Shown in pieces: positions 38,348 through 57,547 of a stretch of 64,000 nt of DNA; the first letter of the stretch is position 1, and every line of letters starts with the position of its first letter. The notes beneath the pieces are model-generated. The model ran no database searches, was not told the origin of the DNA, and worked only from the letters and a program-made list of their open reading frames with translations. Source of the stretch: Flavobacteriales bacterium BRH_c54 (lineage in GTDB: Bacteria > Bacteroidota > Bacteroidia > Flavobacteriales_E > Vicingaceae); contig LADZ01000042.1 in the NCBI GenBank assembly GCA_000961845.1, positions 1-64,000 on the forward strand. Reading direction: 5' to 3'. Both the position numbers and the translations under genes were made by a program.

Positions 38348-38403
38348 AAATTTGGATAATTTTGGAAAAAAGATTAAGGATTCGTAGGGTTAAAAAAAGA
38401 TTT

Positions 38404-38437: not shown

Positions 38438-38439
38438 AT

Positions 38440-38673: not shown

Positions 38674-38675
38674 TT

Positions 38676-39359: not shown

Positions 39360-39369
39360 TATTTAATTT

Positions 39370-40122
39370 TTAAGCAGGTCCTTTTTTCTTAATTATTTTT
39401 TTACTTAGCTGTCTTAGCCTTTTCTCTTTATTGATGTATAGTTTTTCCAATGCATGAATAAGCAGTTCATAAGCATCAAAAATATCTTCAATATCTAAAT
39501 CGCCATGACTTCCATGATTTCCAATCCATTTTATTGCTAATAATGAATCAGCCGCATCAGGATGTTTGATTCCTAATTCTTTAATTTTTTCGTCTAAACT
39601 TCTAAGTTTTCTTTTTCCTCTTACAGTTCTAGTTTTATTAATTCTCTTATCATCACATATACATTCAACTGATTTTCTAATAGCATTTCCACATGCGGAT
39701 TTATCAGCCCAAAACAATGCAAAAGAATTTTTTATTTCCTCTTCAACATCACAAGGTATTTCGTAAGGAATATTAAATAAATTAATAGGAGGGTTAAAAT
39801 ATTTAGGATAATAAAAATCTGTTAAATCGTCTCCAACATATTCATTGATATATTCCCAATCCATAGTATTATCACCAATTATAAAAATATTTTCCTTACA
39901 GTTTCTATTGTTACATACAGCTTTAGCGGTGAATTTTTCTTGAAGAGATTCGGGAGACCAATCTTTTTCCTCATCTCTCTGTTTTTTAGATTGATTTGTT
40001 TCTTTGGTTTCTATAGATTTCTCGTTTATAATCAAATTCCCTTTTTCACAAGTGGGACACATCCAGTCATTAGGGATACCAGATATAAAGTATTTGTAAT
40101 TTTTGTCTCTATCAAAGTTCAT
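39370..40122 (-). CDS. DUF4145 protein with N-terminal zinc ribbon
   Basis: 250 residues. C22/C25 (CPTC) and C70/C75 form a likely zinc ribbon. The second half is DUF4145: YYPKYFNPPINLFNIPYEIP (105-124), SFALFWADKSACGNAIRKSVE (133-153) and AIKWIGNHGSHG (196-207). DUF4145 is HEPN-like and is often found fused to, or beside, restriction and abortive-infection genes. It heads the leftward unit with the AbiV protein. The basic tail is KKIIKKKGPA. Confidence 0.8.
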   Translation of the reverse strand: MNFDRDKNYKYFISGIPNDWMCPTCEKGNLIINEKSIETKETNQSKKQRDEEKDWSPESLQEKFTAKAVCNNRNCKENIFIIGDNTMDWEYINEYVGDDLTDFYYPKYFNPPINLFNIPYEIPCDVEEEIKNSFALFWADKSACGNAIRKSVECICDDKRINKTRTVRGKRKLRSLDEKIKELGIKHPDAADSLLAIKWIGNHGSHGDLDIEDIFDAYELLIHALEKLYINKEKRLRQLSKKIIKKKGPA

Positions 40123-40295
40123 ATAACTATGTTTAGTTGGATAAATTTAAGATACAAATCGTCATATTTACTACATATTTTTAGTTATTGTTTTGTAACA
40201 AAAATAATTATATATTTGAAAATTCATGATATACAAGCAGTTATTTGCAACTGGTATGACCCTATTTATGAAGAATATCCAAAATACTAATTTAT

Positions 40296-41102
40296 ATGAG
40301 CATTTTTTCAGCACCAACAGATAGTTTTTATAAGTTTCTTGCAGTAGGAGGTCTAATAATTTTTATTGCTGGTTGTATATTGCTATACCAAGACCACGTA
40401 TATGAAAAGAAGTTATGGGAAAATTATTGGGAGGAGGAAGTTGTATTACAAAATGAGATTGATATATTTAGTTCCGAATTAGATTATAACCAAAAATATA
40501 AGTCACTTACAGATAGTCTTAACAATTATTATGGAGAATCAATAGAAAATCTACAACTTAATGATTCTATCGCAAAACTGATAATATACAATTTACCAGA
40601 TTCACTTCAAGACAAGTTCGGAAATTTGAGTTACAAAATGAGAAAATTAGAATTACATAAAAGTAATATTAATGAAAAAACATCGTGGAATATAGGTCGA
40701 ATTATGATAGTTATCCCTTTGTTCTTAGGAGAAATAGTTGGGCTAATAGGTTTGATGTTGTGGTATGTTAAAATTCAAAAACCTCTTGATAGAAAAGAAA
40801 CTTACGAAGAAAACAAAAAACTACTAAATGGAGAAATATGGTTTGGAAATTGTCAATCGTGTTGTAAAACATTTTTTTATAATTATGAATTTGGAATTGA
40901 AAAGGATGGTAGTATAAATAAATTGTTTTGTAAAGACTGCTACGCAAATGGTGCTTTTGTAGAACCAGAACTAACATATAAAGAAGCTCGAAGAAAATTA
41001 GAAATTAAGCTTAAAGAAAGAAAATACTGGTTTATACAAAGAATTGTGATGTATAGAAAATTTAAAAAGTTATATCGCTGGGATAGAGATAGAATATGGT
41101 AG
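40296..41102 (+). CDS. Two-span membrane protein with C-terminal zinc ribbon
   Basis: 268 residues: TM helix at about 14-32, a helical extracytoplasmic segment (33-130), TM helix at about 135-155, then a cytoplasmic zinc-ribbon of the PF12674 pattern (CQSCCKTFFYN, EKDGSINKLFCKDCYANGAF, VEPELTYKEARRKL, about 187-235), then a basic tail. The first gene of a rightward trio with DUF3800 (21 bp) and the HEPN-motif protein (62 bp). Membrane anchoring could let it act as a sensor or effector, by inference. Confidence 0.65.
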   Translation: MSIFSAPTDSFYKFLAVGGLIIFIAGCILLYQDHVYEKKLWENYWEEEVVLQNEIDIFSSELDYNQKYKSLTDSLNNYYGESIENLQLNDSIAKLIIYNLPDSLQDKFGNLSYKMRKLELHKSNINEKTSWNIGRIMIVIPLFLGEIVGLIGLMLWYVKIQKPLDRKETYEENKKLLNGEIWFGNCQSCCKTFFYNYEFGIEKDGSINKLFCKDCYANGAFVEPELTYKEARRKLEIKLKERKYWFIQRIVMYRKFKKLYRWDRDRIW

Positions 41103-41123
41103 AATCAAAAATAAATAACAAAA

Positions 41124-42143
41124 ATGCAAGATGAACCAATAATAGCTTTTGACGAATCAGGAAATACTGGACCTGACCTTTTAGATAAGGAACAACCAGT
41201 ATTTGTTCTTGCTTCCGTAAAGTTGACAACAAAACAAGCAAATGAATTAAAAAGCATTTTTAAAACTAATTCTTCTGAATTAAAGTTTAACAGGCTAAAA
41301 AAATACTTCAAATATCACGAACAAATAATTGAGTTTTTAAATCATGACATAATTTCTAAGGAAACAGTAGCCCTTGCTTTATTTCATAAAGAATATTGCA
41401 TTTGCGTTCATACTATTGATAGACTTGTTGAGACACTTGCTTATAGAGATGGGTTAGATTTGTATGAAAATGGGCAAAATCTTGCATTCACCAATTTACT
41501 TTATTATTGCACACCAGTTTTATGCGACAAGGCGATTTATGAAGAGTATAAAAAAGATTTTATAACACTTTTTCAAAAGAGAGACAATCAAAGCATCGAC
41601 AAATTTTATAGTACTGTAGAAGCTTTAATTAACTCAAGTAAAAATAAGCAGTATGCTTCGATACTTTATCCAATCCTTGCAAGTCGTGAAGTAATAGAAG
41701 ATATAATTGATGAATGGGATTCAAATAATTTTGATTCTACTTTATCAGGGTTCGTTAACTTAATAGATTATTGGGGACGAAAAACTGAAAATAAGTTTCA
41801 TGCATATGTTGATGACTCCAAACCATTAAAGCATTTTAAGCATTTAATTGATAAGGTAAAAGATAAATATATTAAGCAACAAGAATTAGGAACTGATAGA
41901 CGAACACTTCAACTTCCTCTCAAATTAATTGATGTTAATTTTGTTAATTCAAAGGATAATGTTGTAGTCCAAATTGCAGATTTAATTGCTGGTGCTGCAA
42001 ACTATTATTATAGAGCAATTGCTAATGAGAAATTTAAAGATGAACTTTCAGAAAAAATTGGCAAAACAAAGTTTATTAAGCTTTTGCATAGCCCTGTGTG
42101 GCCTCACCCAGAGATGACTCCAGAGGGATTGAATACAGTTTAG
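41124..42143 (+). CDS. DUF3800 domain protein
   Basis: 339 residues. DUF3800 has an RNase H-like core with early DESGN (10-14 here, FDESGNTG) and a late QIADLIAGAANYYYRA block (near 280-296) whose Asp completes the acidic site. It is frequent in defence islands and mobile elements; the reaction is unknown. The protein has no membrane segment. It follows the zinc-ribbon membrane protein by 21 bp. Confidence 0.85.
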   Translation: MQDEPIIAFDESGNTGPDLLDKEQPVFVLASVKLTTKQANELKSIFKTNSSELKFNRLKKYFKYHEQIIEFLNHDIISKETVALALFHKEYCICVHTIDRLVETLAYRDGLDLYENGQNLAFTNLLYYCTPVLCDKAIYEEYKKDFITLFQKRDNQSIDKFYSTVEALINSSKNKQYASILYPILASREVIEDIIDEWDSNNFDSTLSGFVNLIDYWGRKTENKFHAYVDDSKPLKHFKHLIDKVKDKYIKQQELGTDRRTLQLPLKLIDVNFVNSKDNVVVQIADLIAGAANYYYRAIANEKFKDELSEKIGKTKFIKLLHSPVWPHPEMTPEGLNTV

Positions 42144-42205
42144 AAAGGAGGAACAAACCTTCTTGATGGTTTAGGAAATTTATAAACCCAAAGATACATC
42201 AATTT

Positions 42206-43036
42206 ATGATTAGAAAACATACACGTGATTACTCTTATCTTCTGCATTCAAATTTAGTAGAAGATTTAATTAATTTATCAATCAAAAACCAAGCACATAA
42301 AAATGATATACTCTTGGTTTTGACTTGTGGTCAATATGATGAAAATGAGGCTAAAGTTTCTAAATTTCATGTGCCAGGCTATATTACAGGTTTTCAATTT
42401 GAAAGATATAGTACTATATCTACTACAAGGTTTATAAAGTGGTATTGTGAAGAATCGGGTTTTGTAATAAATGAAGATGATTTACCAAAAATGGATGTGC
42501 GAGGAGATATGTTAATCAGAGCTTCAATTGGAGTTGAATCAATGATTTATCTTTCATTTTGGGAAAATGATATTACATTAATGAAGTTATATCAATTATC
42601 TCGTTTGGCGACAGGTCAAAGGTATGATTGGCATTGGAGAGAAAAAATGTTAAACACAAAAAACAGGAATGAATTTTTTAGGAAAGATATTAAAAACATT
42701 ATAAAGGATGTTTCTCCGAATTTGTATGATTTTTATGATAAATATGTAGTGGGACAGGTTAGAAACGCTATTGCTCATTCTCAATTGGCTCCTTTAAATA
42801 ATGAGATAAAGCTATTGAACTATTCTGAAGACCCTAAAAAATATTCTCCAAAAATAAATATTCAATATTCAGAATGGGAAGAAATGATATGTGCTACTTT
42901 ATCTTTTAGAGCAAGATTAGTTTCTTCATTGAATGATTTAATAAAAATGAATAAAGATAATTTCCCCAATAATAAATTTAATACTGAAATAACTATAGAA
43001 AATAAAACTGTTAAGGCATCTTTTAAATTTCCTTGA
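42206..43036 (+). CDS. Putative HEPN-type protein (RNAIAH motif)
   Basis: 276 residues, not assigned to a named family. Near the C-terminal third is VRNAIAHSQ with R186 and H191, the Rx4H pattern of HEPN ribonucleases, inside a helical context (FYDKYVVGQ before it). The N-terminal region is mixed alpha/beta. It is the third gene of the rightward trio with DUF3800. HEPN assignment is from one motif only. Confidence 0.55.
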   Translation: MIRKHTRDYSYLLHSNLVEDLINLSIKNQAHKNDILLVLTCGQYDENEAKVSKFHVPGYITGFQFERYSTISTTRFIKWYCEESGFVINEDDLPKMDVRGDMLIRASIGVESMIYLSFWENDITLMKLYQLSRLATGQRYDWHWREKMLNTKNRNEFFRKDIKNIIKDVSPNLYDFYDKYVVGQVRNAIAHSQLAPLNNEIKLLNYSEDPKKYSPKINIQYSEWEEMICATLSFRARLVSSLNDLIKMNKDNFPNNKFNTEITIENKTVKASFKFP

Positions 43037-43161
43037 TTTAATTTTTCCTTTACCTCTCATTTGAAGTTGTGTCACTATAAGTTTACGGTCATGCTAAAAG
43101 GGTATTACATTTTTTTACTAATGCAAAGCATAAACTCCCTATTTGTGGTTAGTTACAGTTT

Positions 43162-43974
43162 TTATTTTTTGTTAAACGTAAATTTCACTTCAAAACTAAA
43201 TATTCGGTTATGGTGTACTATTATTTCTTTTGCTTGTTTTTTGTCCTCTTCAAACGCATTTAGGTTGTATTGTTTTTTGAGTTCTTTTGGAAAATCATAA
43301 TTATATACATCTTTCAGTATTGAATACTTTTCTATTCTTGATTTAAAACTTTTGAACTTATCGTGTGCGATTGCATTGTAAAAAATAAAAACCAATTCAT
43401 CTGGATGTAATTGTGCTCGTAATAATGATGAATAAGTCTCTTGTCTCCCTTCAATACAGTGTTTGTCAATTGCTTTTAGGCAATTATGTAGTACTTTCAT
43501 ATATGGCGATGAACTACCTTTAATGTCATCATGTACTGACCAAAAAGATTTCTTAAACAAATCAAGAGAATTGGCTTCAGGGTTCTTTTTCTTTTCTGAT
43601 TTATATACAGATTCAATATCTTTGTTGATACGAAAAAGAGCTTTTTTACCTGAAAGATTTGGTCTTCCTTTTCTTTCTATGATTTCTATTTTGTCACTTA
43701 TAGAGTCAAACAATATTTGAAAAATGTTTTTGAATTCAGCCTGCTTGCTTTCTCTTGACTGGTTGTTTATAATATCGTATGTTAAAATTATTGATATTAT
43801 GCCAATTAGTGGACTTAAAGAGCCTCCTAAAAAATCGCCAAAAGTCCCCCAATCATCATTTTTATCTGAATAGGTCGAGCTAAAATGAGAGAAATAGTTA
43901 TAAAGAAGAACTATATATACAACAATAACCAACAATAATGGCGAATATCTTTTAATCATTTTCATAATCTTCAT
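43162..43974 (-). CDS. putAbiC-type phage abortive infection protein
   Basis: 270 residues with two TM helices (about 11-28 and 50-67, linked by WGTFGDFLGG) and a cytoplasmic helical domain containing LLRAQLHPDELVFIFYN (184-200), the conserved block of the putAbiC family (PF16872). A paralogue with the same block lies at 44452-45507 on the other strand. A hydrophobic plus-strand reading frame overlaps its 3' end and is a shadow. Abortive-infection role is from family knowledge. Confidence 0.8.
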   Translation of the reverse strand: MKIMKMIKRYSPLLLVIVVYIVLLYNYFSHFSSTYSDKNDDWGTFGDFLGGSLSPLIGIISIILTYDIINNQSRESKQAEFKNIFQILFDSISDKIEIIERKGRPNLSGKKALFRINKDIESVYKSEKKKNPEANSLDLFKKSFWSVHDDIKGSSSPYMKVLHNCLKAIDKHCIEGRQETYSSLLRAQLHPDELVFIFYNAIAHDKFKSFKSRIEKYSILKDVYNYDFPKELKKQYNLNAFEEDKKQAKEIIVHHNRIFSFEVKFTFNKK

Positions 43975-44260
43975 TATTAATTTCTAACGAAGGCTCATTA
44001 ACAATTAAACAACCTTCTGAATTAAATTCTTGATAATTTAAAATGCCAACAGGATACTCATAGCCCTCAATTGTAATTTTTAGGTCATTATTGCATTTAT
44101 CACAATTAAATTCGTGTTCCCATATATATTGAGTTTCGTAGCCCATGCTTCTTTCGTCTGAAGTCATTTCTGGGTCACTAAAACCTTCAGGATTGATGTC
44201 ATGAAGTTTATTACATTTTTTACATTTTACGCTAATTTTTTGTGATATTTTCATTGTCAT
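43952..44260 (-). CDS. Small zinc-ribbon-like protein
   Basis: 102 residues with two CxxC pairs: CKKC near 13-16 and CDKC near 53-56, suggesting one zinc ribbon, then an acidic C-terminus (PSLEINNEDYEND). It overlaps the start of the downstream putAbiC gene by 23 bp, so the pair is probably translated together. Unknown function; it may act with the putAbiC protein. Confidence 0.65.
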   Translation of the reverse strand: MTMKISQKISVKCKKCNKLHDINPEGFSDPEMTSDERSMGYETQYIWEHEFNCDKCNNDLKITIEGYEYPVGILNYQEFNSEGCLIVNEPSLEINNEDYEND

Positions 44261-44451
44261 GTTGCTATCATAATATTGTATATATTTCCATTTATCTAAA
44301 AAATACTGTCCTTCATTAATGACTTCATAATTGGTTTTACTAATGCATTACATTTTGAGTATATACTTTTCATTATTCAAATATAATCAAGTTATTTTAA
44401 ATCAAATATTTTAACTTACATTTACTTTATTAAAATCTTAAATTATTTGAT

Positions 44452-45507
44452 ATGACAGTATTTAGCAAAGAATGGGTTGAGCAAGAAGATAATGGAATGG
44501 TTCATAAATTTTCTATTAAGTCTACTTTTAATAAACTTAAAACAGGAGAATCTACATCAATTATATGTGAAGGATTTGGAATAACTAAAATAATAAATAA
44601 TGATGATGTTTGTTTTGTTGAAGCAAATGGTAGAGTAATGTCATATGAAGAATTAACAGGAAATAAAATGGAAAAGGAAGATTCATACAGGCCTCTAATT
44701 TATCTTTTTATTGTAATTTTTATTGCATGGTTATTAGCTTGGTTTTTTATAGTTTCAGGGATACCTCCTGAAATGCAAGATGGCAAAGAACTACCAATGA
44801 CTAGAGGAGTCTTTGGAGATATGTTTGGAAGTATAAATGCTTTGTTTTCAGGATTAGCATTAGGTGGTATTATATTTACGATTTTATTACAGAAAAAAGA
44901 ACTAAAACTTCAAAGGAAAGAGTTAAGAGATACAAGGAAAGAATTTTCGGTTCAGAATGATACTTTAAGGAGACAACGATTTGAAAATACATTTTTTCAA
45001 TTAATTAATCTCCATCATGAGATAGTGGGAAAATTGGTTTATGGAAATTTTCAGGAGAAAACAAAAATTCAGGAAGCTGTAACCGAACTTAAGGGGCAAC
45101 TTAACAGGGCTGAACAACCACTTAATAGGCTTAACCCAACTCCAGAAAAGGTTAAAAATGAAATAATAGAAGCGTACAAATTTTTTTATTATGAATATGA
45201 ATCTATACTAAGCCATTATTTAAGAAACATTTACCACATATTTAAATATGTCTTTAAATCTAATTTAATATCGGAGAAAGATAAATATTTTTACGCTTCA
45301 ATAGTAAGAGCTCAGCTTTCCCACGATGAATTATTTCTTATTTTTTACAACTCATTCATTGAAGGTTTAGGAAATCCTAATTTTTTATTTTTAATGAAGG
45401 AATTTAATATTCTTGATAATTTTAATTTTGATTTAATTAAACTTAATCATCCGTTACATGTCAAAATATTTAAAGAAAATATTAAGGATGTAGAAAATCC
45501 GTTTTAA
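44452..45507 (+). CDS. putAbiC-type abortive infection protein with N-terminal extension
   Basis: 351 residues. Residues 1-76 form a soluble domain unlike the rest (VKHKF..TFNKL pattern, GFGITKIINNDDVCFVEANG). TM helices are at about 82-103 and 124-146. The helical part carries FFQLINLHHEI (181-191), YLRNIYHIFKYV (256-267) and VRAQLSHDELFLIFYN (285-300), the putAbiC hallmarks. It is divergent from the zinc-ribbon/putAbiC pair, giving two related membrane effectors back to back. Confidence 0.82.
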   Translation: MTVFSKEWVEQEDNGMVHKFSIKSTFNKLKTGESTSIICEGFGITKIINNDDVCFVEANGRVMSYEELTGNKMEKEDSYRPLIYLFIVIFIAWLLAWFFIVSGIPPEMQDGKELPMTRGVFGDMFGSINALFSGLALGGIIFTILLQKKELKLQRKELRDTRKEFSVQNDTLRRQRFENTFFQLINLHHEIVGKLVYGNFQEKTKIQEAVTELKGQLNRAEQPLNRLNPTPEKVKNEIIEAYKFFYYEYESILSHYLRNIYHIFKYVFKSNLISEKDKYFYASIVRAQLSHDELFLIFYNSFIEGLGNPNFLFLMKEFNILDNFNFDLIKLNHPLHVKIFKENIKDVENPF

Positions 45508-45621
45508 CAAGTATGAATATAAACTCTTTTACCTAGTGCACCAATAATATATTCATCGTTTAATTTAAAGATTTTTTTCGGCATAAATAACATTTCATAT
45601 TCTTCAAAATATAGATTAATT

Positions 45622-47361
45622 TTAATTAAAAATTTCAAACCCTTTATCTATAAGCATGTTAGGGCATTTTATTTTAGATTTTTCAGCAATATAATTTGTT
45701 AAAAACATAGAGAATGGAACCATACTCCTCTCAGAATGTAACCTGACATGTTCTTCATTCTTATATTTTTTCTTAGGGTTCATTGTTACATATTTATAAT
45801 AATCATCAATGGCATTTTCAAGTTGAATTTTCTTTTCAAAAAACTGGTCGTGATGAAAAATAAGGTCATCTATATTAATCAGTGTAATAGGTCTAATATT
45901 TTCGATATTGATACCTTCATCTTTAAGTTTTTCAAGTTCATCTTTAAACCAAAAATTGATAATGTTATTTAATCCTGCAACATCGTATTGATGATGGTGA
46001 GTTATTAATATTGGATATATAACTACATTGTCAGGTTTATAATGTGTATCAAAATCAAAATCTTTTTTTAAAACTCTTCTTATATTATTAATTAATTGAA
46101 GTATGGCTTTATTCACAATTTTACCTGAATCTTTCTGAACATAATAAAACTTTTCTTTAAAGGCTTCTTCTAATTTCTTATAATCACATGAAGATTTAAT
46201 TTCTGCATTAACCAATACATCTTTTGATTCAAACAAAAAAATCTTGTTCCCATTTCTAATGTAATAATCAGGTTCCGCAATTATTCCAAATTCTTTAATT
46301 TGTTGACCTGATAATTTTTTATACTTGCCACCATACATTTTTTTGATAGTAGAATAAAGTAAGAAATTCTCTGAAAATTCATCACAATAAAAGCTTCTGA
46401 AATCTTTTATTTTATATTCTTTTAGGTTATTATTTAATTGTGATAATTTAAAGTATAAACCTTTATGGAGCATTTCGAAAATAAATAATTCATATATAAT
46501 TCTATAGGTTGTATTATTTACTCGATATATTGGATTACTTCTAAGAGAAGTAAAATCGTAATCTACAAGAGCTTCATCATCAGAAATAGTTAGTTTATTT
46601 ATAAAATCTATTTCGGACTTGTAATTTTCACTCTGTTCTTCATACTTAATATCAACATGAGCCTCTTTTTTTTTATTTATGCAAGCAAATGAAAATGGTA
46701 GAACTTTAAGTAAATAATCTTTCCAAGTTTCACAATTAAAATAATCTAAAAAAGATTTTAATAAGGGTTGGGCTTTGTCATTTTTTTCAAGAAACTCAAA
46801 TAGAAAAATAGATTTAATAATTTGAGTTATCATTATTTCTTTGGGATTGTAATTAACCAAATCAGAATAGCTATAAGTCATGGACAATCCAATAGCTGAC
46901 AACTTTAAAGGATGGGATAAATCTTCTGTACTATTGAATGCCTTTTGTCCTTTTGCATTATTTATTTCATTTATTAACAGATATGCTTTAAATATATTTA
47001 TTTCACTTTCCTTTTCTGTCTGGTATTCAGTTTCATCTAAATTTTTAAATGCATATTCAAATAAACATAAACTTGTTAAATGGTTAGGAATTAATACATC
47101 TTTGCCTACCTTTTTCTCAAACTGTTTAATTTTTTTAAAAACTTCATTTGCGAAATCATGATTTTCATTCCGAAAAAACATTTCTATGAACTTTTGATTA
47201 TTGTTGAATTCTGATTTTATGGATGAAAAACCTAAAAAGAAAGAAGCAACATTCAAGAATAATTTTCTGCTTATTCCAGACATTAATGAATCTAAGTCTG
47301 GAGAATCTGTAAATATTTTAGAATACTCTAAGGTAATTTGTATGTTTAACCCAAGGCTCAT
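45622..47361 (-). CDS. Large protein with predicted PD-(D/E)XK nuclease motif
   Basis: 579 residues, no named family recognised. Residues 1-350 are mostly helical. Near the middle, AEPDYYIRNGNKIFLFESKD places P364-D365 and E378-x-K380 at the spacing of a PD-(D/E)XK nuclease core, with Glu328 and Glu331 upstream as possible motif I. The C-terminal region (YPILITHHHQYDVAGLNNII) continues an alpha/beta fold. Its ATG overlaps the RES gene stop by one base (TAATG), so the two proteins are made together. Nuclease activity is an inference from the motif. Confidence 0.6.
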   Translation of the reverse strand: MSLGLNIQITLEYSKIFTDSPDLDSLMSGISRKLFLNVASFFLGFSSIKSEFNNNQKFIEMFFRNENHDFANEVFKKIKQFEKKVGKDVLIPNHLTSLCLFEYAFKNLDETEYQTEKESEINIFKAYLLINEINNAKGQKAFNSTEDLSHPLKLSAIGLSMTYSYSDLVNYNPKEIMITQIIKSIFLFEFLEKNDKAQPLLKSFLDYFNCETWKDYLLKVLPFSFACINKKKEAHVDIKYEEQSENYKSEIDFINKLTISDDEALVDYDFTSLRSNPIYRVNNTTYRIIYELFIFEMLHKGLYFKLSQLNNNLKEYKIKDFRSFYCDEFSENFLLYSTIKKMYGGKYKKLSGQQIKEFGIIAEPDYYIRNGNKIFLFESKDVLVNAEIKSSCDYKKLEEAFKEKFYYVQKDSGKIVNKAILQLINNIRRVLKKDFDFDTHYKPDNVVIYPILITHHHQYDVAGLNNIINFWFKDELEKLKDEGINIENIRPITLINIDDLIFHHDQFFEKKIQLENAIDDYYKYVTMNPKKKYKNEEHVRLHSERSMVPFSMFLTNYIAEKSKIKCPNMLIDKGFEIFN

Positions 47362-48605
47362 TATCTGTATTCTAAATTACAATTAATGTTTAATCCAATA
47401 AAATAAATAGGATTCATTTTTTCTGTTGTTTTAATAAAAATATCCTGTTGGGTAGGTATTGCCATATGATATTTGAGTGTTGCCTTCTCATCAAAATCAG
47501 CAATGGGAATAGAGTGAGTAAGTTTATGAATTATTTGTTCTGTTGTCAATTTCAACATGTTTTCTACATAATGTTTAGCACTAAAAAAATGTTTATCGCA
47601 ACAACACAATAACTTTTCATTATCTTGAACATGTACAAATCTTTTTGGTTCTTCAGGTACTTCGGTATATAGAGAAACGCTTTTATAGTTAATGTCCTCA
47701 ATCTGAACATCCAATTTTAACCACACTATTTTTCCATCCTTAACAATAGCTCTTTTTAATCCTGTAAATGTTATTTCTTCATTTTTTATAGATGTAACCC
47801 TCACCTTATCAATTTGCTTTAAACGAAGATGAGAATCAACAAAGTCTTTTCGGATAGCAAAATTTATTGATTCCTTTTTCTTGGCTACAGATGGATAAGC
47901 AATAATTGGTACATTAACTTTTTGCTTCAGATACCTAACAAAAACATCGTGAACAATAGAGGAGGATATATGATAAAATTTTTTTCCAGTAGATGTAAAT
48001 AATTCTTGATATTTCTTTTGTGCATAATAAAAATTTGTTCTATGAGGTTCTGGCATATTTTGAAATGCTTTGTTAAAGTTATTTTCAACCATTCGCATAA
48101 AAACTGCAGCATAAGAATCTTTGTCCACCGAAAGACCAGAAAAAAGCACTTTCATATTAGTATGCTTCTCAACATCTTTAATTTCCCATGTCGAAATATA
48201 TACAATACTATCATTTTCAATAATATTATCACTTACTTCTATGATAGCAGTATGTTTATCAATAGTTCCATAAAAAACTTGTTGCCCAATTCTATTTGCT
48301 CTTCCCATTGCTAAGATTCTATCGCCTATTTTTTTGGGAGGATATGAAAAATGAGAAACCTTATTTTCATCAACCTGCTCACCTTTTTTCAATACCCTTG
48401 CTCTATAGACAAGAAGAGAGGTTAGTGTTTCCTTTTCTAAAGGATTAACAAGGAATATGTTAGAGGATAATTTTTTTCTAATAAATTCTGTTATTCTCGA
48501 TGGAAACCAGCTAATGGGTATCTTTCTAATTTCATCAAATGCCTTGTCATAATATTCTTTATTGAATACTCTAATTGTAAACGTATTTGAATCATTTCTT
48601 TGCAT
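47361..48605 (-). CDS. RES domain protein (long form)
   Basis: 414 residues. The RES fold is visible at about 60-200: YRAR (67-70), YPP (88-90), GRANRIG (101-107), FYG (111-113) and AIIEV (120-124). RES toxins such as MbcT and ParT degrade NAD+ or ADP-ribosylate targets and are 150-230 residues; this one has a 60-residue N-terminal part and about 200 extra C-terminal residues with a Cys pair (LLCCCDKHFF). It is coupled to the nuclease-like gene downstream and preceded by an interrupted GNAT-like frame. A partner antitoxin of the usual Xre type is not adjacent, but an XRE-S24 regulator heads the operon. Confidence 0.75.
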   Translation of the reverse strand: MQRNDSNTFTIRVFNKEYYDKAFDEIRKIPISWFPSRITEFIRKKLSSNIFLVNPLEKETLTSLLVYRARVLKKGEQVDENKVSHFSYPPKKIGDRILAMGRANRIGQQVFYGTIDKHTAIIEVSDNIIENDSIVYISTWEIKDVEKHTNMKVLFSGLSVDKDSYAAVFMRMVENNFNKAFQNMPEPHRTNFYYAQKKYQELFTSTGKKFYHISSSIVHDVFVRYLKQKVNVPIIAYPSVAKKKESINFAIRKDFVDSHLRLKQIDKVRVTSIKNEEITFTGLKRAIVKDGKIVWLKLDVQIEDINYKSVSLYTEVPEEPKRFVHVQDNEKLLCCCDKHFFSAKHYVENMLKLTTEQIIHKLTHSIPIADFDEKATLKYHMAIPTQQDIFIKTTEKMNPIYFIGLNINCNLEYR

Positions 48606-48795
48606 AAAATCTAATCATTTTAGTTCCATATCCTTTTCGTCTATAAGAATCATTAACTTCAGTTCCATTTAACCAAATTTCATAATTGTCTTTTTCATAA
48701 TCAAATTCACAGATTATTTTGTCACCTGATTTACTAACCTACTCGTACTCATAAATCCTTTCAATTAAACGACTATCTTCTTGATTATCTGTCAT
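48592..48795 (-). pseudogene. GNAT-like short frame interrupted by an in-frame amber codon
   Basis: A 67-codon frame runs from an ATG that overlaps the previous gene's stop by 11 bp to a TGA that overlaps the RES start by 14 bp. It has TAG at codon 19. After it comes CEFDYEKDNYEIWLNGTEVN and DSYRRKGYGTKMIRFYAKK, whose RRKGYGTKM matches the acetyl-CoA loop of GNAT proteins. Either a point nonsense mutation broke a coupled gene, or the amber is bypassed, or the part after it starts elsewhere. Confidence 0.6.
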
Positions 48796-48994
48796 GACAT
48801 TCATTGGCACAATAATAACAGCCATCTGCTGTTGAGTAAGTTTTTTTTGCTTCATCAACAGCATCTTTACAATTCGTAAAACTTCCTAAAAATTTTTGAC
48901 TCCATATATCAGGCATATGTGAACAGCCACTTTTATGAACTTCATGGTCACCATTGCTTTGAGCATTAGTATTAACGTAATAATTGTAATACAT
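48785..48994 (-). CDS. Small Cys/His-rich protein
   Basis: 69 residues: YYNYYVNTNAQSNGDHEVHK, then SGCSHMPD, LGSFTNCKDAVDEAKKTYST and CYYCANECH. The spaced Cys and His suggest metal binding. I recall similar small proteins as scattered accessory genes, without known function. Gap to the previous gene is 9 bp and it overlaps the next frame by 11 bp, within the XRE-S24-led operon. Confidence 0.65.
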   Translation of the reverse strand: MYYNYYVNTNAQSNGDHEVHKSGCSHMPDIWSQKFLGSFTNCKDAVDEAKKTYSTADGCYYCANECHDR

Positions 48995-49003
48995 AGTAAT
49001 AAT

Positions 49004-49213
49004 TTATTTGTTATTAATTAAGTCATTGAGTGACTCTATATTATTTTTTTTAAAATAAGTGTCCAAGTGCATATCACTACGAACACCTAAATCAATATTG
49101 TACTGTTTTTCAATAGTTCCCACATGAGTATCTCCTCTTTTTTGACGGAGTTGACCATCTTGGTTTCTACCTCTTTGCCCTTTCATTCCAGGCGCATCAT
49201 TTTTAATAGCCAT
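49004..49213 (-). CDS. Small basic protein
   Basis: 69 residues with a distinct block: KGQRGRNQDGQLRQKRGDTH, then VGTIEKQYNIDLGVRSDMHLDTY. The N-terminal part is basic and Gly/Gln-rich, the rest helical. I recognise the pattern as a recurring small accessory protein but know no function. It is 26 bp after the XRE-S24 gene and 9 bp before the Cys-rich small gene. Confidence 0.65.
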   Translation of the reverse strand: MAIKNDAPGMKGQRGRNQDGQLRQKRGDTHVGTIEKQYNIDLGVRSDMHLDTYFKKNNIESLNDLINNK

Positions 49214-49239
49214 GATTTTAAATTTATTTAGTTATTATT

Positions 49240-49920
49240 TTAAGTTTTATTTAAGTGACAATAATATTTCCACATTTCTTTAATTTTTTCCTTGTCAACT
49301 TCTTTTGCAGGATATTTTGGGTTTCTCGAAATCAGATTCAAACTGTTTTGATTTTCTACAACCATCTTATAAACTATATCACCGTCATCAGTTACAACTA
49401 TATAGTTTTTACCTGACTGTAATTCATTTTGGTCAATCTTAATACCAACGACATATGCTCCATCATTAACCTCTGGCTCCATCGAATCTCCATCAATTTG
49501 AAATGCTCTAGTAATCCCATAAGGTTTATATGGTATTTTGATTGTCTTGAGATTATCTATAAAATGGTCATCCTGAAATCCACTAACATATCCTGCTCTT
49601 GCTTTTATTGGAACCACAGGAACTTCAGGTTCATTAATAGTTTTAGCATTAGTTTTTTCTTTTTTCGATAAATCAAATCTAACTAGTTCATCTAATGAAA
49701 CATCATAAAATGATGCTAGTTTCATTAAAATATGAATACTAGGAAGAGCATCTCCATTTTCATAAGCTCGATATGATGATTTTCCACTAAGACCTAATAA
49801 TTCACTCATCTCATCTAGGGTCTTATTGTGTTCTCCTCTTAAAAAAGATAAGTTAGACTTAATGAAATTAGATTTCTTATTATCATCTTTTCCTGAATTC
49901 TGTTTCTTTATTGGTGACAT
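49240..49920 (-). CDS. XRE-S24 repressor (LexA/CI-like)
   Basis: From the ATG at 49920, 226 residues: XRE helix-turn-helix (about 20-80; LRGEHNKTLDEMSELLGLSG, YRAYENGDALPS), linker with a probable self-cleavage site A109-G110 (KARAG), and an S24 peptidase domain with Ser146 (DGDSMEPEV) and Lys185 (DIVYKMV). Such repressors are cleaved when RecA filaments form, so the operon below may respond to DNA damage or phage attack. An in-frame TTG 7 codons upstream is possible but would lie over the promoter. It heads the leftward operon. Confidence 0.88.
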   Translation of the reverse strand: MSPIKKQNSGKDDNKKSNFIKSNLSFLRGEHNKTLDEMSELLGLSGKSSYRAYENGDALPSIHILMKLASFYDVSLDELVRFDLSKKEKTNAKTINEPEVPVVPIKARAGYVSGFQDDHFIDNLKTIKIPYKPYGITRAFQIDGDSMEPEVNDGAYVVGIKIDQNELQSGKNYIVVTDDGDIVYKMVVENQNSLNLISRNPKYPAKEVDKEKIKEMWKYYCHLNKT

Positions 49921-49922
49921 AT

Positions 49923-49965
49923 CAAATTTATTACACTTCAAAAGTACAATTAAAATGTACTTGTG
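49923..49965 (-). promoter_or_regulatory. Promoter and operator of the XRE-S24 operon
   Basis: Minus-strand TAAATTTG (49930-49923) fits the -7 consensus and ends 2 bp from the ATG, so the mRNA may be leaderless. Just upstream is the palindrome AAGTACA - 7 bp - TGTACTT (49942-49962), extended at 9 of 10 positions per arm (49939-49965) and covering a TTG at 49949-49947. It is a likely operator for autorepression. Confidence 0.6.
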
Positions 49966-50072
49966 AAATTAATAATCACACAAAGTTATTAACAAATTGC
50001 TGACAATCAGAATTTTTTCATTTTCCTCTTTACTTTTCTTTGATAATTTCTTATGTTTAAAATGGATAAGTA

Positions 50073-50333
50073 TTGTATTACATGGAAGAACTTTTTGACT
50101 ATAGTGAAGTAACCAGGAGAATTGATAAAAATTCATTCATGGTCTATTATGACCAATCAAAGACATATTTAAATTTTGTAATTAAAGTTAGAGAACTTCT
50201 TGAAAATTGTGAGATTTCTAAAGAAACTTTTAGAGATAAAATAGAATTATTGAATGGTGAATTGAAAAGACAAGAGAAAGAATTGTTTATTAAACATTAT
50301 CATCTTCAATCTCCTCCTCCAAGCGATATATAA
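50073..50333 (+). CDS. Small helical protein, divergent from the XRE-S24 operon
   Basis: 86 residues, helical and charged: YSEVTRRIDKNSFMVYYDQS, VRELLENCEISKETFRDKIE, then LKRQEKELFIKHYHLQ. No known family. It reads away from the repressor and may share its operator region. Its 3' end overlaps the convergent 109-aa gene by 44 bp. Start could also be Met4. Confidence 0.5.
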   Translation: MYYMEELFDYSEVTRRIDKNSFMVYYDQSKTYLNFVIKVRELLENCEISKETFRDKIELLNGELKRQEKELFIKHYHLQSPPPSDI

Positions 50334-50619
50334 TCATCATATTAAGAGAATTATCTATCATAGATGAAGGGGTGTTATTTATCATCCCAGTAGAATCCAA
50401 TTCCTTTTGAATATTAAGTAAAATAGGGGCATCTAACTTAATTGCTAAGGAGGATGGGGTATTAATAATTAAGGGTCTAATCCCTTCGAATATATTTAAA
50501 GGCATTCTAACAGAAGCCCATTTTTTTGCATTTTTTCTTATATACCCAATATCAAATAATTTATTCCATATATCATCAGTGCTTAAATTGAGTCCTTCTT
50601 TTTGTATTATTTCTTCCAT
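50290..50619 (-). CDS. 109-residue protein, unknown
   Basis: Soluble: MEEIIQKEGLNLSTDDIWNK, YIRKNAKKWASVRMPLNIFE, IINTPSSLAIKLDAPILLNI, then an acidic end (LEEEIEDDNV). It lies 59 bp downstream of the XRE gene at 50679 on the same strand, so it could be a partner of that regulator. No family recognised. Confidence 0.5.
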   Translation of the reverse strand: MEEIIQKEGLNLSTDDIWNKLFDIGYIRKNAKKWASVRMPLNIFEGIRPLIINTPSSLAIKLDAPILLNIQKELDSTGMINNTPSSMIDNSLNMMIIYRLEEEIEDDNV

Positions 50620-50678
50620 AAGATTATAAAAAATAAATTATCCCCTTCAACTTCAAAAATGTCTGCATTTTTTTAGTA

Positions 50679-50960
50679 TCACCCTTTTGTCTTTTTATCA
50701 AACCCCTCAGAGAAAAAATCTTCAATTGTCATTCCAAATCCAAACTTGATTATTCGAACAAGATTTGCAAAGGAAATATTTCTTTCCTTTCTTTCATACC
50801 CACGCATTAGTGAACGAGCTATACCACTCTCATTTGCCAACTTTTCTTGACTCATTTTTTTGGATTTTCTTAATTGCAAAACCCTATCCATAAGTTTACT
50901 AAGGTATTCTTGCTCTATTTCTTTTGTGTCAGATTTCATAACACAAAAATCATTATTCAA
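50679..50960 (-). CDS. XRE-family small regulator
   Basis: 93 residues. Helix-turn-helix at about 22-78: LRKSKKMSQEKLANESGIAR, SLMRGYERKERNISFANLVR, then IIKFGFGMTIEDFFSEGF. Start could be Met1 or Met8. Divergent from the DnaJ-finger membrane protein gene, whose promoter it may control. Confidence 0.8.
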   Translation of the reverse strand: MNNDFCVMKSDTKEIEQEYLSKLMDRVLQLRKSKKMSQEKLANESGIARSLMRGYERKERNISFANLVRIIKFGFGMTIEDFFSEGFDKKTKG

Positions 50961-51012
50961 ACTAAAAATAGTAACTCTATTTATAAACCCTCTATATTTA
51001 GAATTTATTTTA

Positions 51013-51020
51013 TATATTTG
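51013..51020 (+). promoter_or_regulatory. -7 box (TATATTTG)
   Basis: Exact TAnnTTTG, 17 bp before the ATG at 51038. No clear -33 TTG. Confidence 0.5.
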
Positions 51021-51037
51021 CTAAAATTTTTTGACTT

Positions 51038-51514
51038 ATGAATTCAAACAAGTTAGTTAATTTCTTTAAAGAAGTTTATTCAAAAAATGCCTATCTATTT
51101 ATCGGCATTAATATCTTTTCTTTAATCATAATCTTCTTTGTACTAAGTAAAGAAGCAGGTGGAAGTTTTCTTATGCGAGTGTTTTCTTTCCTTTTTTGTG
51201 TTTTAGTTGGTGGTGGACTTATGGCTTTGTGGGCAAGAAAAAGCAACGAAAGTTTAGTAGTTCCATTCCGAAGGGGTGCAAGCATCCTATTAATATTTTT
51301 TGTTGGTATCGCTTGGATGAATGATGGGTATAAGTCTCCTTACTCAAGTAGAACCAATACAAATAAATCTGTTTCTTCTCAGAGTTATACATGTCCACAT
51401 TGTAATGGATTGGGAGGAAGAACAAATAATATCACGGGGCAGTTTGGTGAATGTTCAAGCTGCGGAGGTGATGGAAGAGTTACAGAAGAACAATATAACC
51501 GATTAACAAAGTAA
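51038..51514 (+). CDS. Membrane protein with C-terminal DnaJ-type zinc finger
   Basis: 158 residues, with TM helices at about 20-37, 45-65 and 80-95, then a short cytoplasmic tail carrying CPHCNGLGG (C119, C122) and CSSCGGDG (C139, C142), the CxxCxGxG pair of DnaJ central zinc fingers. Only one zinc site is formed. Seven bp before the lipoprotein gene, likely cotranscribed. Confidence 0.7.
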   Translation: MNSNKLVNFFKEVYSKNAYLFIGINIFSLIIIFFVLSKEAGGSFLMRVFSFLFCVLVGGGLMALWARKSNESLVVPFRRGASILLIFFVGIAWMNDGYKSPYSSRTNTNKSVSSQSYTCPHCNGLGGRTNNITGQFGECSSCGGDGRVTEEQYNRLTK

Positions 51515-51520
51515 TAAGAA

Positions 51521-52840
51521 ATGAAAAAAATATTTATTTTGGGTCTTTCTGCCCTGATTTTAGCAGGTTGTGGTCCGTCTGAAAAAGAGAAAACAAAACA
51601 ATGGTTGCTTGAAAATATTAATACAAATCACCTGGAAGCTTATTTGAAAAATAATGGACGTGAAGATTTATCCATTTTTAAAGGAATATATAAAGAAGAT
51701 ACCGTTTCTGTTGTAACTAATGATATGTTTATCATTAATGAATTAAATAAGCAAGGTAAATTTACAGGAGCTGAAAATGCATTTGATAAGCTAAATACAG
51801 TATTTAGCAGTGCGAATATATCTCCTGAAATGATTTTGTATGATGAAGAATGTAATGCTTTAATAAATATAATAACAGAAGCCTCTAAGATTGAATTTGT
51901 TTATTTCTTAGTTTACACTAGTAGAAATGAAAAAAATGGTCTATCGTTCATGCCTTTTCCTTTTGTAGATGAATACACAAGTAAAAATCTTTATTATGAT
52001 AAGCTAGCAGTAGACTTGATAAATACATTTGGTAAAAAAGTAAACGAAGGAAATATATCTCAGGCAGATACTTTAGCTCCTTCAATTTCTGAACAAGAGT
52101 TCTTAGGGGATGGAATTTCTGCAGAACTAATTGCTTCACTCACAATGAATCCAAATAAATCAATTACAAAAAAAGAAACAAAGAAAGGACGGGATAAAAC
52201 AACGGGAGAATATTATACTGCTGATGTAGATGTACAGTATTCTGGAAAAGAGAAATCATGGTCCAAAATAAGAGACTATTTTCTTGATGTAAATTCAAAT
52301 ATTTATGTTGTTGAAGATATCGAGTATATTAGGAATTATGATTTCTCTGACCGCTTTCCAAACGGAATACATAATATTAAAAGAATTCGAATAAGAAAAT
52401 TTGATGCTGAAGGTGTTCAAGAATGGAGTTATTGTGGATTGCCATGCTCAACTGATAGTATTTTTAGTAGTTATGGCGATTTAAGTTTTCTTTCCATGGG
52501 ACTTTTAAAAGATACATTAAACATCTTTGTTTATGAAGGCAATCATTCATTTAGCATATATAATTCTAAAGGTTTGAACGAATCGGAAGTTATAAAACAT
52601 GTTTTAAAAATTAATCCAAGTAATGGAGAGCTTCACTCATTTAACACAATTACTAATGAAGTATATCAAGAGTACAAAAACAAAGTTTCGGAAGAACCTA
52701 AAAACAAAGGAAAACTAAATATAATTGAACATAAAAATATACTTGATGAACCCTATCATACATTTAAAATAGGTGAATATGGAGAAGGATATTTTTATTC
52801 ACCTTTTGATTCGTCAGATTGTGATTGTGTAATTGATTAA
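51521..52840 (+). CDS. Large lipoprotein, unknown function
   Basis: 439 residues. Signal peptide and lipobox LILAGC place Cys17 as the lipidated residue. The mature part is mixed, with DKTTGEYYTADVDVQYSGKE, a beta-rich stretch (VEDIEYIRNYDFSDRFPNGI) and a C-terminal Asp/Cys-rich end (SSDCDCVID). No recognised domain. Cotranscribed with the DnaJ-finger protein upstream and the 146-aa protein 8 bp downstream. Confidence 0.7.
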   Translation: MKKIFILGLSALILAGCGPSEKEKTKQWLLENINTNHLEAYLKNNGREDLSIFKGIYKEDTVSVVTNDMFIINELNKQGKFTGAENAFDKLNTVFSSANISPEMILYDEECNALINIITEASKIEFVYFLVYTSRNEKNGLSFMPFPFVDEYTSKNLYYDKLAVDLINTFGKKVNEGNISQADTLAPSISEQEFLGDGISAELIASLTMNPNKSITKKETKKGRDKTTGEYYTADVDVQYSGKEKSWSKIRDYFLDVNSNIYVVEDIEYIRNYDFSDRFPNGIHNIKRIRIRKFDAEGVQEWSYCGLPCSTDSIFSSYGDLSFLSMGLLKDTLNIFVYEGNHSFSIYNSKGLNESEVIKHVLKINPSNGELHSFNTITNEVYQEYKNKVSEEPKNKGKLNIIEHKNILDEPYHTFKIGEYGEGYFYSPFDSSDCDCVID

Positions 52841-52848
52841 TCTAATTT

Positions 52849-53289
52849 ATGATGAATAGAATTTTTATAATAATTGTAATAATTATAATAGTTGGAGGTG
52901 GAATTCAACTTTTTGGATTAGATAAACTAGATGTATGCGACAATGATGATTTAATTGAAAATTTGTGTGAAAGCAATTGGAAGACAAAGGGTGGCTTAAA
53001 TTTATTGGAATTTAATGAGAATGGTACTTTCTCTTTAACAACCAATGGTGGAGAAAATCATGTTGAAGGTACATATCATTTAACAAATGATTGTAACCTC
53101 ATTTTTCCTAATGCTAAAGGTGGAAGTGAATTTTATGGAGTAAAGAATAGGCATATTGTTTTAACTGTTGAAAATGCTGGTAGTACTGAAATTAGCTTAT
53201 CAAGTACTCAGTATAATACATTTATTTTAAAAGATATTGGAACAATGCTAAAAGAGTCTGATTTTGCTCATTTAACTCAAAGAGATTAG
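52849..53289 (+). CDS. Membrane-anchored lipocalin-like protein
   Basis: 146 residues with an N-terminal TM or signal anchor (about 4-22) and a mature beta-rich domain: WKTKGGLNLLEFNENGTFSL, TNGGENHVEGTYHLTNDCNL. The W..xx..LxFxxNGTF..xxxx..GTY pattern resembles small lipocalin-like stress proteins. Third in a rightward run of three envelope genes. Function unknown. Confidence 0.6.
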   Translation: MMNRIFIIIVIIIIVGGGIQLFGLDKLDVCDNDDLIENLCESNWKTKGGLNLLEFNENGTFSLTTNGGENHVEGTYHLTNDCNLIFPNAKGGSEFYGVKNRHIVLTVENAGSTEISLSSTQYNTFILKDIGTMLKESDFAHLTQRD

Positions 53290-53299
53290 AAAAGAGTGC

Positions 53300-53527
53300 C
53301 TACTCATCTATGTTTAATAAGTCAATTAATTTAACATCTAAAGCAATACAGACATCTCGTAAAGTTCCAATACCAGTATTCTGTCCAGATTCAATTCGGA
53401 TTGCTTGAGTTCTGGATGTATTCATTTTTTTTGCAAATGCATATAAAGAAAGTCCTTTTTGAGTCCTTATTTCTTTAACTCTCTCGGAAATTTTCATCAA
53501 ATATTCTTTGTTGTCCAGTTTTTTCAT
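53300..53527 (-). CDS. XRE-family small regulator
   Basis: 75 residues, almost only a helix-turn-helix: ISERVKEIRTQKGLSLYAFA, KKMNTSRTQAIRIESGQNTG, then LRDVCIALDVKLIDLLNID. The start may be Met1 or Met11. Convergent with the lipocalin-like gene and divergent from the DUF2130 gene by 239 bp, so it may control that side. Confidence 0.8.
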   Translation of the reverse strand: MKKLDNKEYLMKISERVKEIRTQKGLSLYAFAKKMNTSRTQAIRIESGQNTGIGTLRDVCIALDVKLIDLLNIDE

Positions 53528-53674
53528 AAAATTACTATTGAAAATCAGTTAGTTAGTATTTTGTCACAAATTTAATCATTTTTTTTGAAACAAAAACCTA
53601 ATTAGGTCGTATAAAGACATTGAATACAAAAAATAATTGTGTTCACTCCCCAAAATCAACTCAAAGCCTGACAC

Positions 53675-53738
53675 TGGTATAATGAGTTAAGCAAACAACA
53701 TTTTATGTAATTAAATTCCTTCCTCAAAAGAGGAAGGA
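53675..53738 (+). promoter_or_regulatory. Extended -10-like box and 5' hairpin before the DUF2130 gene
   Basis: TGGTATAAT (53675-53683) looks like an E. coli-type extended -10 (TGnTATAAT), unusual in this genome. After it, TCCTTCCTC (53717-53725) pairs perfectly with GAGGAAGGA (53730-53738) around AAAA, with flanking AAACAA/TTGTTT partly extending the stem. It may be a regulatory leader; no T-tract follows. Confidence 0.4.
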
Positions 53739-53766
53739 TATTGTTTAACTAACACCATATATAGTC

Positions 53767-55008
53767 ATGAAAAATTTAAAAAACATTACGTGCCCGAACT
53801 GCCATAGTAGTTTTGAAATTAAATCAGCTATTTGGAATGATATAAAATCATCCATTGAGCTAGAATTAAATCAAGAAATTTTAAATCAAAAATCAGAACT
53901 TCAAAAAAAGAAAGATGAATATCAAAAGTTATCCTTCAGGTTAAGCAAAGAAAAAGCTGACTTTCATAATCTCGTTGAACAGCAAGTAGCAAAAGATATT
54001 CTTGTAAAGACAGATTCTCTTCGAAAGAAAATAGAGGAAGAAATTAGCTCAAAGAAAGAAAAAGAGCTTGATGAACTTCAATCAAAGCTTATTTCAAAGA
54101 CCCAAGAAATTTCTGGCTTAAATAAGCTAAAGAGGAAGATGGCTCTTGAAAATGAAGAAAAAGAGGCTAAGATTATCATAAAGTATGACTCCATGCTTGA
54201 GGAAAAACTTAAGGAAGCTAAATTAGCTGTTCAGAATGAATCCAGTGAGAAGCATAAGCTTGAAATTATGCAAAAGGAGAAATTGATTTCTGACCTTAAG
54301 ACTCAGTTGGATATTACTCAAAGGAAAATTGAACAGAATTCATCGCAGCTTATTGGAGAAGTCCAAGAAATAAGACTTGAATCTCTGCTTTATGAAATTC
54401 ATGGTGATACTGATAATATTGTTCCAATTCCCAAGGGAGTGAATGGGGCTGATTGCTACCAAGAAGTTAAGACTGATTCAGGAGTTATCTTAGGGAAAAT
54501 CCTTTATGAAAGCAAATTCACTAAATCATTCTCAAAAGGATGGCTTGACAAATTGCATGAAGATAATAAGTCAATTAATTCTCAGATTTTAGTCCTTGTC
54601 ACCAAGACAATGCCTAAGGAACTGGAAAACGAAAGTTTTGGAATTATTGATGGTATTTTCATTACAAGACTGAATTTCATAAAACCTCTTTCAATTTTAT
54701 TGAAGTACTCAATCCTTAAAGTTTCTCAAGTACAGTTGAAATATAAGGGGCATGAGAATAAGCAAAAAGTGCTATTTGATTATATCACAAGCCAAGAGTT
54801 TGAAAACATGTCAAAGAGTGTCTTAAAGCAGCTGGAGAGTCTTAAAATCTCTATGGATGTTGAGAAGAAGAAGCTTGTCAAAATTTATGCTGAAAGAGAG
54901 AAAATGATTGAGAATGCAATCATGTCAATGACCCAATATTTTGGGAACATCAATGGAATTGTTTCTTCAGATGCTCAAGTACTAAAAGCTCTTCCAAAGG
55001 CGAGTTAA
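53767..55008 (+). CDS. DUF2130 coiled-coil protein, predicted PD-(D/E)XK nuclease fold
   Basis: 413 residues. CPNC (9-12) begins a possible zinc knuckle; residues 25-195 form a long coiled coil; the DUF2130 core follows. GADCYQEVK and ILYESKFTKSFSKGW place D229 and E248-x-K250 at nuclease spacing, with E205 upstream as possible motif I. DUF2130 has no established role. Codons favour AAG and CTT more than neighbouring genes, like the IS1380 transposase nearby, suggesting a different donor. It is bracketed by a 5' hairpin and the structured region at 55063-55199. Confidence 0.75.
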   Translation: MKNLKNITCPNCHSSFEIKSAIWNDIKSSIELELNQEILNQKSELQKKKDEYQKLSFRLSKEKADFHNLVEQQVAKDILVKTDSLRKKIEEEISSKKEKELDELQSKLISKTQEISGLNKLKRKMALENEEKEAKIIIKYDSMLEEKLKEAKLAVQNESSEKHKLEIMQKEKLISDLKTQLDITQRKIEQNSSQLIGEVQEIRLESLLYEIHGDTDNIVPIPKGVNGADCYQEVKTDSGVILGKILYESKFTKSFSKGWLDKLHEDNKSINSQILVLVTKTMPKELENESFGIIDGIFITRLNFIKPLSILLKYSILKVSQVQLKYKGHENKQKVLFDYITSQEFENMSKSVLKQLESLKISMDVEKKKLVKIYAEREKMIENAIMSMTQYFGNINGIVSSDAQVLKALPKAS

Positions 55009-55062
55009 TTCTAAACGAAGCAATAAGCTTTAATCTATAAACTTTATTCAATCAAAGCATCG

Positions 55063-55199
55063 GAGCCATTTGGCTCTGGAGAGATTGCTTTGTCCAAAAG
55101 CAAAGTGTCTTAGAGCAGGAATCGAACAACTCCTTATCTAAATTGCAATTGGCTCAATGCATCTCTCGAACAATCGGAAGTGGGGACTTCTGGTTGTTC
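55063..55199 (+). ncRNA. Candidate structured RNA (four-way junction plus 14-bp hairpin)
   Basis: GAGCCA/TGGCTC hairpin (55063-55076), then a cloverleaf closed by GAGAGAT (55079-55085) with ATCTCTC (55161-55167). Inside are arms CTTTG/CAAAG (55088-55105), TTAGA-AGGA / TCCT-TCTAA (55110-55141) and GCA.TTG/CAATGC (55145-55160). It is followed by a 14-bp hairpin (55168-55199) with GGGG loop. Two of its pairs are G-U only when read on the plus strand, pointing to an RNA transcribed rightward. The tRNA-like size is without tRNA consensus, anticodon or CCA. It follows the DUF2130 stop by 54 bp. Confidence 0.55.
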
Positions 55200-55245
55200 A
55201 GCTTTGTATTGAACTCAAAAAATCAATTGTAACCCTCAAAACTTT

Positions 55246-55602
55246 ATGACCATGAAAAACACCAATTATACACTTGAAGATTTATTCGAATTCTGGAAAG
55301 GACAACAAAAATTGAATTTTCAAGCATTAAAAATATTATTAGAAATCTATGAAAATGGAAGGATTTTAAAACACAGAAAACGATGGATTATATTGGCTGG
55401 ATTGAGAGGATTGGGGTTATATGAAGTTGGATATCAAAAAACAACAATAGATGAAATTTTAAAAGAAGATACAGATAAAAAGATAGATGTGAAAAATGAT
55501 ATTCCTGGGGAAATTGAATGGGGCAATAAACATAAAGGAATGCAATTTTTTAAATGCAACTTAATTGATGGAACATATGAGTTTTGGAAAATTTTAAATT
55601 AA
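55246..55602 (+). CDS. Hypothetical 118-residue protein
   Basis: Soluble and Lys-rich: YTLEDLFEFWKGQQKLNFQA, LKHRKRWIILAGLRGLGLYE, then GNKHKGMQFFKCNLIDGTYE. AT-rich codon use, unlike the DUF2130 and transposase genes around it. It follows the structured region by 46 bp. Start may be Met1 or Met3. No family recognised. Confidence 0.5.
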   Translation: MTMKNTNYTLEDLFEFWKGQQKLNFQALKILLEIYENGRILKHRKRWIILAGLRGLGLYEVGYQKTTIDEILKEDTDKKIDVKNDIPGEIEWGNKHKGMQFFKCNLIDGTYEFWKILN

Positions 55603-55675
55603 ACCCAGATAAACTCATTTGTGAATTTTAATAATTAACTCGTTATTCAAATCAAAAAAAAGAAACAATGAAACA

Positions 55676-57043: not shown

Positions 57044-57046
57044 GAA

Positions 57047-57090
57047 GGCATCTATGAGGGTCTCCTTTCCATTCGGACTGGAGCAATGCC
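57047..57090 (+). repeat. Hairpin just after the transposase
   Basis: GGCAT (57047-57051) with ATGCC (57086-57090), enclosing CTCC/GGAG and TCC/GGA around ATTC. It is GC-rich for this window and begins 3 bp after the transposase stop; it may belong to the right end of the insertion sequence. Confidence 0.45.
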
Positions 57091-57140
57091 TCCTACAATA
57101 AATTTTAGTAATTTTCCATTTATTTTAAATCAAATTAATT

Positions 57141-57539: not shown

Positions 57540-57547
57540 CAATAAGA

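Follow-up and report, generated by a model that had tools for sequence, protein, structure and literature searches.

In a 64-kb stretch of DNA from Flavobacteriales bacterium BRH_c54 (contig LADZ01000042.1, positions 1 to 64,000; this whole stretch is hereafter the window), we describe an operon in which genes for a repressor, two small proteins, a long RES protein and a putative PD-(D/E)XK nuclease follow one another leftward on the minus strand, almost without gaps. The order is: an XRE-S24 repressor that joins a helix-turn-helix (HTH) domain to an S24 peptidase (49240-49941); p69a (49004-49213) and p69b (48785-48994), two small proteins of 69 amino acids (aa) each, the second of them Cys-rich; the broken remnant of a GNAT gene (48592-48795); the 414-aa RES protein (47361-48605); and the 579-aa PD-(D/E)XK protein (45622-47361). 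The spacing is tight: 26 nt separate the repressor gene from p69a and 9 nt separate p69a from p69b, the 179 nt between p69b and the RES gene are occupied by the GNAT remnant, which overlaps the start of the RES gene, and the RES and nuclease genes overlap by 1 nt at TAATG. A first-pass annotation, made from the sequence, had described this gene order, the near-gapless leftward run and the TAATG junction; all of these parts are in place. The G+C content of the operon is 28%, versus 31% for the window.

The RES protein of the window scores under the cut-off when it is compared with the Pfam RES profile (PF08808 / COG5654; E=0.0044). Its RES identity, proposed in the first-pass annotation, is upheld by an 11-member family that we built with relatives from the same phylum: PF08808 is matched by 10 of the 11 members (best 2e-7), and the window protein carries catalytic-type residues R68, R102, Y112, E123, S239 and N248. 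In the family alignment R68, R102, F111, Y112, E123, Y211 and Y237 are invariant, and N104, P238, N248 and A250 nearly so. This conserved set agrees with the active-site residues of NatT, namely R23, R82, Y93, S184 and N193 (PMC11535050). The RES-Xre modules NatRT, MbcTA, ParST and RES-Xre Pp have the same R, R, Y, E, S and N positions; consumption of nicotinamide adenine dinucleotide (NAD+), as in those modules, would be expected of the window protein. When the family profile is compared with that of ordinary RES toxins, the R-x-N...Y...E block comes into register, at E=0.003 and a probability of only 10%.

Two properties set the window protein apart from the RES-Xre modules, and both had been remarked upon in the first-pass annotation: its size, and the lack of an Xre partner. 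Within the same class an ordinary RES toxin has 148-162 aa, as against 414 aa here and 218-472 aa among the family loci examined. As to the partner, we used a hidden Markov model (HMM) of ordinary RES antitoxins, with 20 loci from a Pfam RES search as the positive control: an antitoxin is present in 16 of these 20 ordinary loci, whereas an Xre/MbcA/ParS-type antitoxin is found by the same model in none of 31 RES-family loci, window island included. The window protein also differs from the modules in standing under the promoter of an S24 repressor. GndRX, a RES-Xre system of Legionella that is linked to the genotoxic stress response (PMC12457610), likewise contains a RES protein, but it has an Xre partner and neither nuclease nor S24 repressor; the window operon has both of the latter and no Xre.

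Leaving its own genome aside, 24 of 295 genomes of the class hold a member of this RES family; no relative was found in the viral contigs, phages and plasmids that we searched. Several relatives have neighbours of a defence type. One belongs to a type III RM operon, with GmrSD_N on one side of it and the Res/Mod pair on the other (locus L049), and others adjoin a HEPN/MNT pair (L096), Abi_C (L103), DUF3800 plus a reverse transcriptase (L109), or SLFN_AlbA_2/HNH (L110). Separately, we observed that two relatives from one genus (L044, L045) have similar short frames (CIVVLG...) close by, which may be repeats of an integron-cassette-like kind.

The 579-aa protein carries the letters EPD at 363-365 and ESK at 378-380, and across 20 relatives P364, D365, E378 and K380 do not vary, nor does E331; Q422 is a further motif residue, and the N-terminal half is helical. 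An AlphaFold2 model computed from 20 sequences (predicted local distance difference test, pLDDT, 86.9; predicted template modelling score, pTM, 0.87) places strands 366-370 and 373-380 between flanking helices 321-342 and 394-405. Among solved structures its best match is Upx (9wuf; E 4.7e-5, probability 1.00), a name that stands for an uncharacterised PD-(D/E)XK defence protein; the small subunit of R.BspD6I (probability 0.98), Hjc Holliday junction resolvases and Can2/Cdn1 also match. The modelled core, which has an acidic residue and ExK on adjacent strands, is of the PD-(D/E)XK type, as the first-pass annotation had predicted, and these matches are consistent with it. Upx is a listed nuclease-type antiphage system (PMC10855318), and the possible likeness to it is one of structure, with a global TM-score of only 0.26/0.16 and with about half the length (579 versus 1212 aa). 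By sequence the protein does not belong with Upx: none of 20 members of the nuclease family has a PADLOC match, and there is no sequence match in the PDB. Nor does Pfam, NCBIfam or PADLOC hold a model of the family itself.

We found full-length relatives of the nuclease, at about 31% identity, on eight Hymenobacter plasmids, at 20 genome loci that are mostly of Hymenobacter, on one viral contig and in additional genomes of the phylum. On annotated plasmids and in Xylanibacter they adjoin AbiE, GmrSD, MmeI-type restriction-modification (RM) genes and Piwi; the Xylanibacter relative comes after AbiEi, two GmrSD genes and AbiEii. One weak match (L004) was discarded as a chance similarity to a TonB-receptor-like protein. 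At another locus (L160, 1-11765) the relative is part of a more extended run, together with a fragment of a HerA-like ATPase, two HNH-like proteins and one protein of 1348 aa; this run may be an undescribed defence operon, its functions having been read by eye.

Do the two large proteins belong together? The first-pass annotation had suggested a new arrangement, which would be refuted if homologues of the two never occurred together, and by this criterion of its own a conserved system is not supported. The RES profile has no match in any of 31 nuclease loci, and the nuclease profile has none in any of 30 related RES loci; the best-scoring RES relative (417 aa, L108) is likewise without a nuclease. 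We rejected a conserved RES-nuclease pair on the basis of these neighbourhoods: since co-occurrence is nil in both directions, each family lives independently, and the pairing has so far been seen in this genome only. The scan of genome contigs relied on conserved peptides, so that diverged relatives would be missed, and contig ends cut several loci; rare pairs may therefore exist elsewhere. The arrangement seems to have been put together locally, and not to be a new system of two fixed parts.

The start of the repressor is more likely the ATG at 49920, which gives 226 aa. Pfam matches are to Peptidase_S24 (5e-13) and HTH_3 (5.4e-11), and A109-G110, S146 and K185 stand at the positions of the cleavage site and Ser/Lys dyad of LexA/CI-like proteins. 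The damage-cleavable repressor of the first-pass annotation is thus borne out as to its self-cleavage residues. Directly upstream of the gene lies an operator-like perfect palindrome, AAGTACA-N7-TGTACTT (49942-49962; 21 bp in a 7-N7-7 form), which is the sole match with no mismatch in the window; when up to 3 mismatches are allowed, the number of matches is at chance level. The Bacteroidota promoter consensus is TTTG / TAnnTTTG, and a promoter-like site of this type, TTTG-N21-TACATTTT, with one mismatch at its last base, is found on the minus strand at 49952-49984, its second element falling within the palindrome. Given the S24 and cleavage residues and a unique perfect palindrome over a promoter-like site, autoregulation of the repressor and its induction by damage are plausible. 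LexA/CI-type XRE-S24 repressors (e.g., Marinitoga, Pseudomonas phage CI-like) likewise have HTH and S24 domains, A-G, Ser and Lys residues, and a palindrome at their own promoter. The window repressor is 26-31% identical to phage repressors; these precede phage genes, whereas it precedes putative defence genes.

Between the repressor and the RES gene, p69a is a basic protein whose family includes members at L061 (3968-4177), L066 (3338-4204) and L067 (4782-4997). On a Bradyrhizobium plasmid (BTAi1) one relative immediately precedes a TIR gene; on pGT2 a second, with TIR genes alongside, makes up the end of a SLOG-like protein; a third, with 77% identity, sits within a type I RM operon (SLOG and RM were both read by eye), and another stands alone. 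As a lead, p69a may be a defence accessory protein. Relatives of p69b are widespread on plasmids of Vibrio, enterobacteria and Bacteroidota; those with 35-62% identity come from plasmids of Vibrio, Proteus, E. coli, Gordonia and Flammeovirga, among others. We rejected p69b as a partner, for it has no fixed neighbour in the neighbourhoods examined. The GNAT-like frame, which had been described as amber-interrupted, is real: it opens at ATG 48795, meets an amber TAG at 48741-48739 and ends at TGA 48594-48592, and it matches Acetyltransf_CG at E=1.4e-5. Since that match covers only profile positions 5-48 of 80, we read the frame as a relic with two defects, the amber codon and a truncation that has removed its C-terminal part at the point where RES begins, and rejected a functional GNAT.

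The operon is carried by a 19.5-kb island (38329-57862) between sucC-like and M42 peptidase-like genes. The close relative G008 has the empty site, with these two genes 84 bp apart. Palindromic 13-bp repeats, TTGAATAATTCAA on the left (38316-38328) and TTGAATAATTCAA on the right (57863-57875), flank the island, which is bounded by inverted ends of about 19 bp, CCTWAATTACGCARGTTTC; the insertion splits the terminator hairpin on the sucC side. Large as it is, the element has gone into a terminator marked by a 13-bp repeat, and it has no obvious recombinase of its own. A second island at the same hotspot in G012 was considered and rejected: the distance between the sucC-like and M42 genes there comes from rearrangement. 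The other contents support a defence-island setting: further genes of the abortive-infection type, namely an AbiV HEPN gene, DUF4145, DUF3800 and two oppositely oriented putAbiC genes (38679-45507); there is also an insertion sequence (IS).

The reading that we favour, at a probability of about 0.45, is that of an island-borne mosaic: two putative defence effectors, each mobile in its own right, have been brought together in one operon under a single promoter, which a self-cleavable XRE-S24 repressor controls. We infer the following course of events. At rest, the repressor would bind the palindrome that covers its promoter; on damage to DNA or attack by phage it would cleave itself between A109 and G110, after which repressor, p69a, p69b, RES and nuclease would be transcribed as one run. 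The PD-(D/E)XK protein would cut DNA, in a role like that of Upx, and the RES protein would consume NAD+, such that growth of the infected or damaged cell would stop. Several points weigh against this reading. S24 repressors also govern genes of prophages and others besides, and it is assumed that transcription runs on through the broken GNAT. The profile match of the RES family to ordinary RES toxins is weak; an AlphaFold model of the RES protein from its single sequence is useless (pLDDT 32), which leaves its fold, expected to be ART-like, to be read from the sequence. The global TM-score of the Upx match is low, and clear defence neighbours accompany only a minority of the RES relatives.

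Of the other explanations, the operon could be decaying cargo, its repressor a phage-type leftover and its RES and nuclease genes expressed weakly or not at all. A doubly broken GNAT in mid-operon, a low-GC island with an IS and the sub-threshold Pfam score of the window RES protein would fit such decay. It is nonetheless unlikely, in that neither the RES nor the nuclease frame is interrupted and both keep every catalytic-type residue, the spacing is tight, and the repressor and its operator-like site are whole. The translational coupling suggested by TAATG and the shared promoter would also suit a single new two-component system, in which the small proteins act as restraint or sensor, RES removes NAD and the nuclease cuts DNA under a damage-cleavable repressor; that relatives of p69a stand next to other NAD-type effectors (TIR, SLOG) speaks for it too. 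We regard it as distinctly improbable in view of the nil co-occurrence and of nuclease relatives without RES in about 30 replicons.

A smaller unit is conceivable, with p69a or p69b directly inhibiting RES and the nuclease an unrelated rider: the small genes do stand directly before RES, and the contexts of the p69a relatives on BTAi1 and pGT2, before a TIR gene and fused to a SLOG-like protein respectively, also speak for it. Yet neither small protein occurs in any of 30 RES-family loci, and p69a is found within a type I RM operon and alone, so that we give this proposal little credence. There is scarcely any room for the last alternative, a variant RES-Xre toxin-antitoxin module whose antitoxin would be the XRE-S24 repressor itself. 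An HTH regulator does share the operon with RES, and the link of GndRX to genotoxic stress offers a parallel; but the repressor carries S24 and not the C-terminal domain of an Xre/MbcA/ParS antitoxin, and the HMM that recognises most ordinary loci is silent here and in 30 RES-family loci. We rejected the variant for want of an antitoxin-type domain in the repressor.

The nuclease family, for which Pfam, NCBIfam and PADLOC hold no model, is, independently of the RES protein, a candidate defence nuclease. Depletion of NAD, by TIR and SIR2 proteins, is one of the main themes in bacterial defence. Up to 2024, no RES toxin-antitoxin system had been linked to immunity (PMC11535050). We consider the RES family itself a more interesting result than the pairing, and the part most worth testing. 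It is possible, if on the doubtful side, that long RES proteins (about 260-470 aa) form an antitoxin-free class of immune effectors which consume NAD and which members of this phylum insert into varied defence operons (type III RM, HEPN/MNT, Abi_C, an S24-controlled nuclease), of which the present operon would be a damage-inducible example. With an antitoxin-free family that recurs beside restriction and abortive-infection genes, the question of whether RES proteins act as immune effectors becomes directly testable.

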